From an uncultured Pelagibacteraceae bacterium (GTDB lineage: Bacteria; Pseudomonadota; Alphaproteobacteria; Pelagibacterales; Pelagibacteraceae): a stretch of DNA of 64,000 bases. Position 1 is the stretch's first letter; each line of letters starts with the position of its first letter. Below, in pieces: positions 9,596-20,506 of the stretch. The DNA lies in NCBI GenBank assembly GCA_902534735.1, contig CACARD010000002.1, positions 62,001 to 126,000 on the forward strand, written 5' to 3'. The position numbers and the translations under genes were made by a program. Under the pieces are notes generated by a model. The model saw only the letters and a program-made list of their open reading frames with translations, was not told the DNA's origin and ran no database searches.

Positions 9596-11091
9596 TTTTT
9601 TTTTCTAAAAGTTGAAAATATTTGCCACCCAACAATTGTGATTGTAATCAATAATATTATTAGAGTTATTGGTCTATCCCATAAAAAATTAGGTGACCCA
9701 TCGCTTATTAAAAGTGATCTTCTCAATGTTTCCTCCATTAGTCCTCCAAGTACAAAAGCTAATATTAAAGGTGGCATGGGAAAATCGTAGAGCCTTAAAA
9801 AAGTTGCAACCACTGCAATACCTATCATTAAAAAAATATCAAAATTATTAAATGACATTAAATAAATTCCTGTTACTGAGAAAAATAAAATTAAAGGTAT
9901 TAAGTAATTTCTAGGTACCGCTAAAATTCTAGCGATATAGGGAATTAATGGCAAATTTAAAATTAAAAGTACAACCATACCAATATACATTGACATGATA
10001 ACCGACCAAAAAATTTCAGGGTTTGTCTGATAAAGTCTTGGCCCTGGCTGAATACCAAATCCTAAAAGAGCTCCAAGCATCACAGCTGTTGTACCACTTC
10101 CAGGAATTCCTAATGTTAGTAATGGAACAAATGATCCAGAGCAAGCTGCATTGTTAGCAGTTTCTGGTGCGGATAAACCATGAACACTACCTTTTCCAAA
10201 TTTTTGTTTTTCTTCTTCATTCACATAATTTCTTTCCATTCCATAAGCTAAGAAAGATGCTATAGTTGCGCCTGCTCCAGGTAAAACACCTATCAAAAAA
10301 CCCAATATAGATGACCTAGGTATCGTTTTAACCATTTTAATCGTTTCTTCTTTATTTACTTTAATTGAACCTAGTTCTGTTAATGAAATTTGCTTTGCAG
10401 CTCTATTTGGATCTTTTCCTCTAAAAATAATTGTAAGTGCTTCACTCATTGCAAATGTAGCCATGACGATTAATACAAAGCTAATTCCATCAGTTAGATT
10501 CATATTATTAAATGTGAACCTTGTGATATCTGACAACGAGTCTTGTCCTACAGTTGCTAACATTAATCCTAAAACTACCATCATCATTGCTTTTAAAAAC
10601 TGTCCTTTAGATGAGAATGCAGAAATTGCAGTTAAACCTAAAATCATTAGTGCAAAATAGTCAGGTGACCTAAAAGCTAAACTTACTTTTGACAAACTAG
10701 GAGCTGCAACTAATAAAAATATTGCAGAAATTGTTCCACCAGCAAATGAACTATAAGCGGCGATTGCTAAAGCTTTACCTGCTTTACCTTGTTGTGCCAT
10801 TGGATAGCCATCAAATGCAGTAGCAACAGTTCCTGGTATTCCAGGTGCATTTAACAAAATTGAAGATGTAGATCCTCCAAATACCGCACCATAGTATACA
10901 CCAGCCATCAAAATTAAACCTGTTGATGGATCAAAGCCATAAGTAATTGGTATCATTAATGCTATTGCAGTCATTGGTCCAAGTCCAGGCAACATACCAA
11001 TTATTGTTCCGGCGAAACAACCAACCATTACCATTAAAATATTTGTTAATGATAATGCTGTTGATAATCCGATAAGTATTCCTTCGATCAT
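9592..11091 (-). CDS. tctA: Tripartite tricarboxylate transporter large membrane subunit (TctA)
   Basis: GCFAGTIIGMLPGLGPMTAIALMIPITYG...GVYYGAVFGGSTSSILLNAPG. Confidence 0.93.
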   Translation of the reverse strand: MIEGILIGLSTALSLTNILMVMVGCFAGTIIGMLPGLGPMTAIALMIPITYGFDPSTGLILMAGVYYGAVFGGSTSSILLNAPGIPGTVATAFDGYPMAQQGKAGKALAIAAYSSFAGGTISAIFLLVAAPSLSKVSLAFRSPDYFALMILGLTAISAFSSKGQFLKAMMMVVLGLMLATVGQDSLSDITRFTFNNMNLTDGISFVLIVMATFAMSEALTIIFRGKDPNRAAKQISLTELGSIKVNKEETIKMVKTIPRSSILGFLIGVLPGAGATIASFLAYGMERNYVNEEEKQKFGKGSVHGLSAPETANNAACSGSFVPLLTLGIPGSGTTAVMLGALLGFGIQPGPRLYQTNPEIFWSVIMSMYIGMVVLLILNLPLIPYIARILAVPRNYLIPLILFFSVTGIYLMSFNNFDIFLMIGIAVVATFLRLYDFPMPPLILAFVLGGLMEETLRRSLLISDGSPNFLWDRPITLIILLITITIVGWQIFSTFRKKN

Positions 11092-17351: not shown

Positions 17352-18809
17352 CTATCTTCTTTGCGATAAACTAGCATGTTTATTTAACACTTCAGCTGAA
17401 ATAATTTTTGCTTCTGTTGTTTTCTTTACATTCCAGATTTTTTCTTTTGCAATTTTTGTTGATATTTTATTATCAACTATTGGTGAAGGATAATCTTTAC
17501 CAATTTCTAAATTTATACCCTTTTGTTCAATGAATGTTAATTTCCATGGTTCATGAACTAATTTTCCTGGAACATTTTTTAATTCTGGAACCCATTTTTT
17601 TATAAAATCTCCTGTAGGATCTTGATCAATTGATTGTTTAATTGGATTGTAAATTCTTATTGAATTTATGCCTGTTGTTCCTGATTGCATTTGAAATTGT
17701 GAATAATGAATACCTGGCTCATAATCTGTAAATAATTTTGCTAAATGTTTTGATGTTTTTTTCCAATCTAGCCACAATTGATAAGAGGCAAATGAAACTA
17801 ACATTGCTCTCATTCTAAAATTAATCCATCCGTTAGTTCTAAGGTACCTCATGCAAGCATCAACAAATGGATAACCTGTAGTTCCATTTTTCCATGCTAA
17901 ATTATAATCTTCATTAAAATCATTTTCTCTTATTCCATTATAAGCACTATTCATATTTCTAAATTCAATTTCAGGTTCATCATATAACTTTTGGATAAAA
18001 TGACAGTGCCAGGCTAATCTGCTTTTAAAAGCAATTAAGGATTTCTTTTTTGAAAAAGATAAATTGGATTTTAACTTGTCATTAGTCTTTTTAAAAATTT
18101 CCTTAATAGAAATATTTCCGAATGCAATATGAGGGCTTAATCTAGAACAAGAAGTTTCTCCTGTTATCGGCGAAGACATTTCTTTCTGGTAATTTTCTGA
18201 TCTGTCATTAAGGAAAGAAACTAAAAGTTGAAGTGCGTTTTGTCTTCCACCAATTTGAATTTTTCCATTTTCTAAATTATTTGTTTCTATTTTTGATAAA
18301 ACCCCCACATAATTATCTGAAATAAACTCACAATTTAAATTTGATTTTGCGCTTTCACTATCTATAAATTTATTCCAATTATATGACCATTTATTTCTAA
18401 TTCTATGATTTAGTTGAACGCCAAATTGATTTGATAATTTCCAATTAATATTTTTTTCTTTAAATAAAAAACTAACTTCTTTATCTAAGTTAGTTATATA
18501 CATGTTCTTGAATATTATATTTGAATAAACCTCATTTATTTTAAATTTATCAGTTAAATGACTTAATATTTCTAATGTATCTCCATAATATATATTGAGT
18601 TTAGCATTATATTTTTCACTCAATGTTTTTTTTAAGTCTTCTAATGATGATTTTAAAAAATCGAGATGGAATGAGCTTGATGTAGGTAATTTGTGATATT
18701 CTTTATCAAATATGTAAATTGGTAAAATCTTTCCCGATTTTGCAGCTTCGTTGAATGCATCATTATTAGATACACGTAGATCGTTCCTGAACCACACGAT
18801 TTTGTTCAT
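17352..18809 (-). CDS. phr: Deoxyribodipyrimidine photolyase / cryptochrome family
   Basis: IVWFRNDLRVSNNDAF...WKNGTTGYPFVDACMRYLRTNGWINFRMRAMLVSF. Confidence 0.93.
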   Translation of the reverse strand: MNKIVWFRNDLRVSNNDAFNEAAKSGKILPIYIFDKEYHKLPTSSSFHLDFLKSSLEDLKKTLSEKYNAKLNIYYGDTLEILSHLTDKFKINEVYSNIIFKNMYITNLDKEVSFLFKEKNINWKLSNQFGVQLNHRIRNKWSYNWNKFIDSESAKSNLNCEFISDNYVGVLSKIETNNLENGKIQIGGRQNALQLLVSFLNDRSENYQKEMSSPITGETSCSRLSPHIAFGNISIKEIFKKTNDKLKSNLSFSKKKSLIAFKSRLAWHCHFIQKLYDEPEIEFRNMNSAYNGIRENDFNEDYNLAWKNGTTGYPFVDACMRYLRTNGWINFRMRAMLVSFASYQLWLDWKKTSKHLAKLFTDYEPGIHYSQFQMQSGTTGINSIRIYNPIKQSIDQDPTGDFIKKWVPELKNVPGKLVHEPWKLTFIEQKGINLEIGKDYPSPIVDNKISTKIAKEKIWNVKKTTEAKIISAEVLNKHASLSQRR

Positions 18810-18818
18810 TTTTAATAA

Positions 18819-19010
18819 TTAAAGACTGATTTTGAAAGTTCTTGAAGTTTTGTCGTCTGATACTTTTAAAATTTTAAATTTTGAAGTTTTTTCAAGTTTT
18901 TGTCCTTTGTTTGTAACAAAAGATTTCATTTTCTTAACTTCACCCTCAGGCATTTTTCTTGTGTATTTCAGAGTATGTTTTTTTGATCCAATAATAAATA
19001 TCGTTTTCAT
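18819..19010 (-). CDS. Hypothetical small protein
   Basis: 63 aa ORF co-oriented with and just upstream of the photolyase; the antisense ORF at 18832..19020 is judged less likely. Confidence 0.45.
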   Translation of the reverse strand: MKTIFIIGSKKHTLKYTRKMPEGEVKKMKSFVTNKGQKLEKTSKFKILKVSDDKTSRTFKISL

Positions 19011-19212
19011 GAGATTTTAACTACAAATATATTTATTGTCTGTCTCTGTGACATAAGTTTCATTTAAGAGGTTGGGAATATTTTGATTATTTTGATATCG
19101 AGAATCTACTAAAGAGACAGGTTGTATTCAAATAATATATTAATAAAAAATAGAAATAAATTTGTTGAATACAACCTACCTAAAACTTATTTTATAAGTG
19201 AAGGAGGTGCAA

Positions 19213-19242
19213 ATGCTTAGAATAACGCCACCTGACACTTAG
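19213..19242 (+). other. 9-codon micro-ORF (MLRITPPDT) preceded by strong Shine-Dalgarno AAGGAGGTG
   Basis: aaggaggtgcaaATGCTTAGAATAACGCCACCTGACACTTAG; SD at 19201-19209. Confidence 0.35.
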
Positions 19243-19313
19243 CTGGTGAGATATCACATATTAAAAATAACACAAACTAAATCCATTTGATGGATTTGGC
19301 CAAAATGGCATAA

Positions 19314-19359
19314 AAAAGGGGAGCTCTTTTGGTAATTACCAATTGAGCTGACCCCTTTT
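19314..19359 (-). terminator. Long palindromic intrinsic terminator, possibly bidirectional
   Basis: AAAAGGGGAGCTCTTTTGGTAATTACCAATTGAGCTGACCCCTTTT; T tract on the minus strand after CCCC; T-rich on the plus strand too. Confidence 0.75.
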
Positions 19360-20506
19360 AATAATTTTTAGACATAAAATCTTTAATTCTCTTGGCACCT
19401 TCAATTATATCTTTTGTGCTTCTAGCGTATGAGAATCGGATAGTAGAATTTCCTCTTTTTTGATCAAAATCTATTCCTGGTGTTATCGCAACATTTGCTT
19501 CATCTAAAACTTTTTTACAAAAAGCTAAGCTATCATTTGAATATTCAGAAATATCAACATAGATGTAAAAAGCTCCATCAGGTGGTGAAAACTTTTTTAA
19601 TCCTGCTTTTGGTAATTCTTCTAAAAGTATCTCTCTGTTTTTTTTATATACCTCGACATTCGATTGTAACTCTTCATTTGCATCTAATGAAGCAAGAGCT
19701 GTAACTTGACTTGCATGCGGAGGACAAACAAACAAATTTTGCGAAAGTCTTTCTACTTGTCTGACATGATCTTCTGGTACAACCATCCACCCTATTCGCC
19801 AACCAGTCATTGAAAAGTATTTTGAAAAAGAATTAATTACATAGCAATTATCTGTAATCTCTAGAGCTGATGTTGGATTATTTTCATATTGAATTCCATG
19901 ATAAATTTCATCACTAATAAAACTTACATTATTCTCATTTGCGGTATTAATTAGATTTTCTAAAGATTGTTTATCTAACATGGACCCAGTTGGATTTGCA
20001 GGTGAAGCTACAAGAATTCCATTTAAATTATTATTTGTAATATCTTCTGGAACAGGTTGAAATCTATTTTGAAGTTTAGTTTGAATATCTACAGTTTCCA
20101 AACTTAGTGATTTTAGTATTTGTCTATAGCTAGGATAACTTGGAGAACCAATTCCAACTCTGTCTCCACTATCAAATAGTGCAGAAAAGGATAAGATAAA
20201 AGCTCCAGAAGAGCCTGTTGTAACTACTATTCTATTTGGATTTAAATCTAAATTGTACCAATCTCCATATAGTTTTGAAATTTTTGTTCTTAAAGCAGGT
20301 AGACCAAGTGATACTGTGTAACCTAGATTATTTTTGTTTATCTCATTAGTAATATAATCTTTTGCGATCTTGGGTGCTGGTGTTCCTGGCTGCCCTACCT
20401 CCATATGAATTATATCTTTACCTTTTTCTTCAGCAATTCTTGCTGATTCCATCACATCCATGACAATAAATGGATCAACATCTGATCTTTTTGATTTTTT
20501 CATCAT
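19358..20506 (-). CDS. Pyridoxal-phosphate-dependent aminotransferase, class I/II
   Basis: VASPANPTGSMLDKQSLENL...SFSKYFSMTGWRIGWMVVP. Confidence 0.92.
   Translation of the reverse strand: MMKKSKRSDVDPFIVMDVMESARIAEEKGKDIIHMEVGQPGTPAPKIAKDYITNEINKNNLGYTVSLGLPALRTKISKLYGDWYNLDLNPNRIVVTTGSSGAFILSFSALFDSGDRVGIGSPSYPSYRQILKSLSLETVDIQTKLQNRFQPVPEDITNNNLNGILVASPANPTGSMLDKQSLENLINTANENNVSFISDEIYHGIQYENNPTSALEITDNCYVINSFSKYFSMTGWRIGWMVVPEDHVRQVERLSQNLFVCPPHASQVTALASLDANEELQSNVEVYKKNREILLEELPKAGLKKFSPPDGAFYIYVDISEYSNDSLAFCKKVLDEANVAITPGIDFDQKRGNSTIRFSYARSTKDIIEGAKRIKDFMSKNY

Follow-up and report, generated by a model that had tools for sequence, protein, structure and literature searches.

The dual-function small RNAs VcdRP, SgrS/SgrT, and AzuCR are free-standing structured RNAs, each with a promoter of its own and an ORF that is short and translated, comprising 29 residues in the case of VcdP (PMC8672173), and the arrest leader peptides of the TnaC type combine a short ORF, a conserved C-terminus beside the stop codon, a proline motif, and downstream hairpins (PMC8429421). 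In SAR11 bacteria, the rhtB, pntA, bablM, and SAR11_0636 RNAs described by Meyer et al (2009) are rare structured intergenic regions of AT-rich genomes, and the SAR11_0636 element is thought to be separately transcribed (PMC2704228). A survey of strain HIMB5 by Stav et al (2019) gave, in its general account, at least three sORFs of unknown function together with other candidates (PMC6429828). The locus analyzed here lies in a 64,000-nucleotide stretch of DNA (the window) from a member of the same organisms, the host genome being 1.15 Mb in 28 contigs. An earlier note had proposed that an intergenic region of ~340 bp in the window encodes an sRNA, a micro-peptide mRNA, or a leader-type attenuator. 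We consider it highly likely that the region holds a free-standing translated micro-gene of SAR11 (Pelagibacter-like) bacteria, so that the micro-peptide mRNA and its free-standing nature were retained from the proposal and the attenuator was not. Comparison among relatives shows an independent gene in which the frame, the peptide C-terminus, and the hairpins are conserved. The micro-gene resembles the dual-function sRNAs in its general plan, but its ORF has only 6–9 codons, no pairing region conserved across genera was found in it, it has no terminator T-run, and it was found only in the sampled SAR11 family. Judging from its sequence, it would function in the manner of a stand-alone sORF gene or of a dual-function RNA, although it is only a candidate member of the dual-function sRNAs. 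It differs from the TnaC type in having no downstream gene in cis and a shorter peptide, with arrest being only proposed here, and it lacks the defining feature of leader-peptide attenuators. The loci and structures of the four elements of Meyer et al (2009) also differ from those of the micro-gene.

The features are compiled in Table 1. The promoter would produce an RNA of ~160 nt that starts almost at the Shine-Dalgarno (SD) sequence and is thus near-leaderless, ribosomes would translate its 6–9 codons ending with Pro-Pro-Asp/Glu-Thr/Ile-stop, and three conserved hairpins would form its tail. The perfect SD, the ORF, the CACCT, and the two small hairpins described in the earlier note were all found in the window at the positions it gave, as was a 13-bp perfect inverted repeat (19119–19131 with 19165–19177).

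Table 1. Coordinates of the micro-gene, its predicted elements, and adjoining genes in the window.
Feature	Position	Strand	Remarks
Outward promoter	19103..19131	minus	Predicted from sequence; -35 TTGAAT (19131-19126), 17 bp, -10 TAGATT (19108-19103), then TCTCGATATC
Micro-gene promoter	19165..19193	plus	Predicted; -35 TTGAAT (19165-19170), 17 bp, -10 TATTTT (19188-19193)
Conserved A/T tract AAATAAATT	ahead of -10 of micro-gene promoter	plus	
Transcription start of micro-gene	about 19200	plus	Predicted
Shine-Dalgarno AAGGAGGTG	19201..19209	plus	3 bases ahead of ATG
Micro-ORF ATGCTTAGAATAACGCCACCTGACACTTAG	19213..19242	plus	MLRITPPDT and stop, 9 codons
CACCT	19229-19233	plus	
Small hairpin GTGA-GATA-TCAC	19246..19257	plus	Directly 3' of stop codon; predicted fold, weak
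Hairpin A	19278..19298	plus	Covariation
Hairpin B (GCC...GGC)	19299..19309	plus	Covariation
Hairpin C	19316..19357	plus	Long stem, end of element; adjoins stop codon of convergent gene
Class I/II aminotransferase	19358..20506	minus (convergent)	Outside element; PF00155, E 1.5e-54
63-aa protein	18819..19010	minus (divergent)	Outside element; no Pfam match
DNA photolyase	17352-18809		Beyond 63-aa gene; PF03441, E 2.8e-68

The reading frame was examined in 82 distinct copies of the element. Every copy had GGAGG, and the first ATG after it was in frame with the C-terminal core in all 82, the distance from the SD to the ATG being free to vary from 3 to 11 nt. The ORF measured 18, 21, 24, or 27 nt without the stop codon, and the residues N-terminal to the core varied widely (MLRIT, MNQM, MLKL, MNLS, MQNKT, and MS), whereas the peptide ended with PPDT in 69 copies, PPET in 6, PPEI in 2, and LPDT in 5. 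The first core codon was CCA (72), CCG (5), or TTG (5, the LPDT clade), the second was CCT in 81 copies and CCA in 1, the acidic codon was GAC (54), GAT (20), or GAA (8), and the last was ACT (72), ACA (8), or ATT (2), followed by the stop codon TAG (67), TAA (10), or TGA (5). The sole residue change at the acidic position was from Asp to Glu, which occurred between genera and kept the PP-acidic motif. When the 12 sites in the sense codons of the PPDT core were compared, 4 of 4 third positions varied as opposed to 1 of 8 other positions, giving a Fisher p of about 0.01 in a hand count that leaves out the LPDT clade. Such a focus of the changes on synonymous third positions and stop codons is the pattern expected of a translated peptide. 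Because third positions and the stop codon vary while the residues stay, and because the length shifts by whole codons, the micro-ORF appears to be translated and selected at the peptide level. The survival of the frame, the SD, and the C-terminal residues through such changes in three genera strongly supports the micro-peptide mRNA of the earlier note. Since the core was itself part of the patterns and models used to gather the copies, those that had lost it are under-represented, for which the divergent copies found by the models are a partial guard. In the main genus, the core was tighter than coding demands (CCT in 81/82, TAG in 67/82, and CTG after most stop codons), and therefore some constraint at the RNA level coexists with coding there. 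In the LPDT clade (L127, L128, L129, L136, and L137), the peptide reads MLKLPDT or MLNLPDT with one proline codon lost, and the pairing there is instead between CCUGAC of the ORF and a GUCAGG located 5' of the SD. In one further copy (L131, G111:C6:25791-25939), only CGGGGT is left of the SD and an ATG in frame is missing, with CTACCAGACACATAG (LPDT and stop) and the outline of the hairpins remaining, and this copy may be decaying.

The fold of the region was also far from random. The plus strand of 19021–19360 had a predicted energy of −88.5 kcal/mol compared with −59.9 ± 4.5 kcal/mol for shuffled sequences (z −6.35), and the ~160-nt transcript alone had a z of −4.68 against shuffles. In an alignment of 38 sequences from three genera, 15 of the 28 model pairs had changed on both sides, with 111 doubly changed cells compared with 26.7 in shuffles and with 96.1% of the cells pairing, where the alignment was fitted to the model and hence favors structure. 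This covariation signal was abolished by sliding the pairing partners, and the first MAFFT alignment had already given hairpins B and C in RNAalifold. Double changes were found in 6/6 model pairs of hairpin A (99.1% of cells paired), in 2/3 pairs of hairpin B (98.2% paired), and in 7/13 pairs of hairpin C. Thus, the check by covariation suggested in the earlier note was positive for all three hairpins, including its two small ones, and the SD helix was without double changes. The loop of hairpin B is a GNRA-type GAAA in genus g4, and at the site of the small post-stop hairpin, other clades form different small hairpins as judged by eye. Hairpin C has a conserved asymmetric internal loop, in which A stands opposite GAA, GAC, GUU, or UGA; a word akin to this hairpin, GAGCTCTTTTAG, is present at 10062–10073 on the minus strand. 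The earlier note had read hairpin C as a long terminator palindrome. The palindrome is there, but it has no T-run and was not scored as an intrinsic terminator, and no terminator-like site, including a U-tract terminator, was found in 18950–19450. Hairpin C could be a protein-binding site or a bidirectional end signal. Furthermore, Rfam 15 gave no match above the gathering cut-off for the window or for three homologous loci, the best sub-threshold matches being irrelevant snoRNA and miRNA models, and no tRNA or tmRNA was found in the window.

The earlier note had also drawn attention to the pairing of the SD with the CACCT as a competing stem. In the minimum-energy fold, the SD is indeed paired with the Pro codons (CACCT), and it was sequestered with a probability above 0.5 in 92% of 62 distinct copies. 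However, synonymous recoding of the core, with assumed codon weights, gave an SD pairing of 0.73 ± 0.03 compared with the 0.67 observed. We therefore rejected a selected switch between the SD and an anti-SD, since the pairing is retained after recoding and the helix is without double changes. Because recoded cores retain the pairing equally well, it seems to be an incidental result of having Pro codons opposite an SD, as far as the modeled folds indicate.

As for the 13-bp inverted repeat, its interpretation as an RNA stem was replaced by one in which the repeat is best explained, from its sequence and conservation, as a pair of −35 boxes that face each other and belong to two divergent promoters, both of which precede the transcript. 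The plus-strand copy, TTGAATACAACC, is followed after 17 bp by TATTTT, which ends just ahead of the SD, and the facing copy is followed after 17 bp by TAGATT on the minus strand. A −10-like TAnnnT at 16–18 bp was present on both sides in most relatives, the spacing at the micro-gene promoter being 16–17 bp in most of them. The two −35 boxes were identified together in 137 loci and were 33 or 30 bp apart in 136 of these. Because the plus-strand −35 and −10 boxes were below the threshold of a simple consensus scan, the promoter of the micro-gene was deduced from this conservation. With the promoter so placed, the 5' end of the transcript would be within a few bases of the SD. At the outward promoter, most relatives keep a −10 of the form TAnnnT and its distance from the −35, with a conserved CYCGATA after it, whatever gene adjoins. 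This outward block, TTGAATACAACCTN4-5TTTAGTAGATTCYCGATA (19090–19131 in the window), is kept even where there is no minus-strand gene and is conserved more strictly than the −35 of the micro-gene itself; on this side, the sequence ceases to be conserved after roughly the first ten bases of the predicted minus transcript.

The element was next compared for its distribution. The region matched 117 of 201 congeneric genomes, and its 16-mer core, CCACCTGAYACTTAGC, occurred once per genome in 76 of the 201, in which the reversed 16-mer as a control had no match. When 298 genomes of the order were scanned with a covariance model (R1), 113 were found to carry the element, consisting of 111 of 198 from the same genus and 2 from genus g4, and a second model (R2) detected it in 6/6 genomes of g4 and 2/2 tested genomes of g2. 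The element was always present as a single copy and its presence was patchy, with carriers representing about 56% of the sampled genomes of its own genus, and R2 found no convincing copy in 16 well-sequenced congeneric genomes. Since many near-complete genomes of the same genus are without it, the micro-gene is apparently dispensable. It was not found outside the family in the sampled Alphaproteobacteria, where the class-wide filters were stricter and may miss distant relatives.

We take one relative genome (G211) to be that of 'Candidatus Pelagibacter ubique' HTCC1062; another (G213) looks like HTCC7211, and a carrier of the micro-gene (G012) is apparently strain HIMB5. The element of G211, at 762691–762863 on the minus strand, lies inside a region (762678–763012) that Table 1 of Meyer et al (2009) places between SAR11_0785 and qacH, with 76 BLAST hits and no RNA assigned (PMC2704228). 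The neighbors agree with this placement: SAR11_0785 is annotated as DUF952 (PMC2864753), and at L126, the convergent gene is DUF952 and the other neighbor looks like a transporter of the small multidrug-resistance type, which is what qacH should be. The micro-gene may be one of the sORFs counted in the HIMB5 survey, the motifs of which are itemized in its Table S1 (PMC6429828). In the full texts searched on small RNAs and small proteins of SAR11, no description of the micro-gene was found.

Several other explanations were weighed against these results. An SD, a short Pro-Pro ORF, a downstream stem, and a possible SD-sequestering hairpin resemble the features of an attenuator that controls transcription of a neighboring gene, or of a leader peptide acting in cis, but the nearest 3' gene ran in the opposite direction at 31/31 loci and varied among lineages, amounting to a dozen different genes. 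These neighbors include the aminotransferase, a solute/sodium symporter-like permease, a small cytochrome-like protein, and DUF952, as well as gamma-carbonic-anhydrase-like, major-facilitator, FolD-like, and other proteins, their names beyond the Pfam-matched ones being a by-eye reading of the sequences. Because the 3' gene is convergent, the gene arrangement implies that no downstream gene is controlled in cis, which rules out an attenuator and leaves the gene free-standing. With the last hairpin not being called an intrinsic terminator either, we rejected the attenuator of the earlier note and regard a cis-acting leader as extremely improbable. On the other side of the element, the divergent 63-aa protein before the photolyase is basic, and at L144, L133, L125, L020, and other loci, the divergent gene encodes a membrane protein of 59–60 aa, IIAGFAGADYTFTNGEAFIIWILMAILVNN, with no Pfam match. 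The patchy presence in the genus, with absence from near-complete genomes, and the many different loci might instead fit a selfish or toxic minigene that moves between genomes, such as a drop-off minigene or an addiction-type element. However, the element never exceeds one copy, the loci read have no adjoining repeats or recombinase, and a soluble peptide of 6–9 residues is unlike the known type I toxins. Among phage records, no match covers the element; a phage origin was dropped, as the matches obtained were short and partial, were confined to three Prevotella Lak phages, and in no case covered 80%. A selfish element is thus very unlikely in our estimate.

An RNA that pairs with target mRNAs, as a dual-function or antisense sRNA in which the short ORF is secondary or regulatory, deserves more weight and is a possibility that we nevertheless doubt. 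It would agree with a free-standing, structured, single-copy RNA of ~160 nt and with an 18-nt stretch, CCACCTGAYACTTAGCTG, that is nearly invariant in the main genus. What the genera have in common, however, is the SD, the C-terminal residues, and the hairpin structure, with no unpaired stretch outside the ORF, and for this reason, we lean toward an action through translation rather than through antisense pairing. The strong fold and covariation could belong to a pure structured RNA or protein-binding element with an incidental ORF. Such an ORF would not retain its frame, SD, and residues through stop swaps, whole-codon length changes, and the change from Asp to Glu, and this explanation is very improbable. 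Taken together, a free-standing micro-gene with a translation-dependent output and a hairpin tail is the best explanation as a whole, for which we would put the chances at about even, and it is very probable that either the peptide of 6–9 residues or its production is of importance to the host cells.

If the micro-gene acts through translation, our best guess is that the ribosome is slowed at the Pro-Pro-Asp/Glu step, just ahead of termination. Where efp was deleted in E. coli, all PPD and PPN occurrences fell among the pausing PPX sites, and PPE pauses were also listed (PMC4140641). Pro-Pro-Asp is thus a strong EF-P–dependent pause motif, and the change from Asp to Glu would keep this property. 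PPD or PPE was present in 77 of the 82 copies and LPD in 5, and the single-proline LPDT clade weakens Pro-Pro pausing and argues against a strict Pro-Pro requirement. EF-P was found in 17 of 17 SAR11 genomes tested, with or without the micro-gene, and hence does not discriminate. A complementarity of CUUAGCUG to 23S rRNA (8 bp, determined by hand) was dropped as being at chance level. On an ORF of nine codons, a ribosome slowed two codons before the stop would occlude the SD and prevent re-initiation, the hairpins would protect the short RNA, and the RNA–ribosome complex or the released C-terminus could act in trans, for example, as a monitor of translation capacity. Programmed pausing specifically is a tentative guess, and a trans-acting arrest-peptide device, in which the free-standing gene yields nothing but a ribosome paused on its peptide of 6–9 residues, is unlikely on present evidence.

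SAR11 genomes are extremely compact, and therefore an intergenic region of ~340 bp that persists in them needs a reason. Annotation pipelines omit reading frames of 6–9 codons by rule, and to our knowledge, very few conserved stand-alone reading frames of this size have been documented. If the arrest-peptide device were true, it would be one that acts in trans, not in cis, in a very abundant group of ocean bacteria. More generally, should the peptide or the act of translating it have a function, the micro-gene would represent a genetic unit of very small size in an organism that is both abundant and available in culture, and would provide a clean case of a translation-dependent RNA that is no leader.
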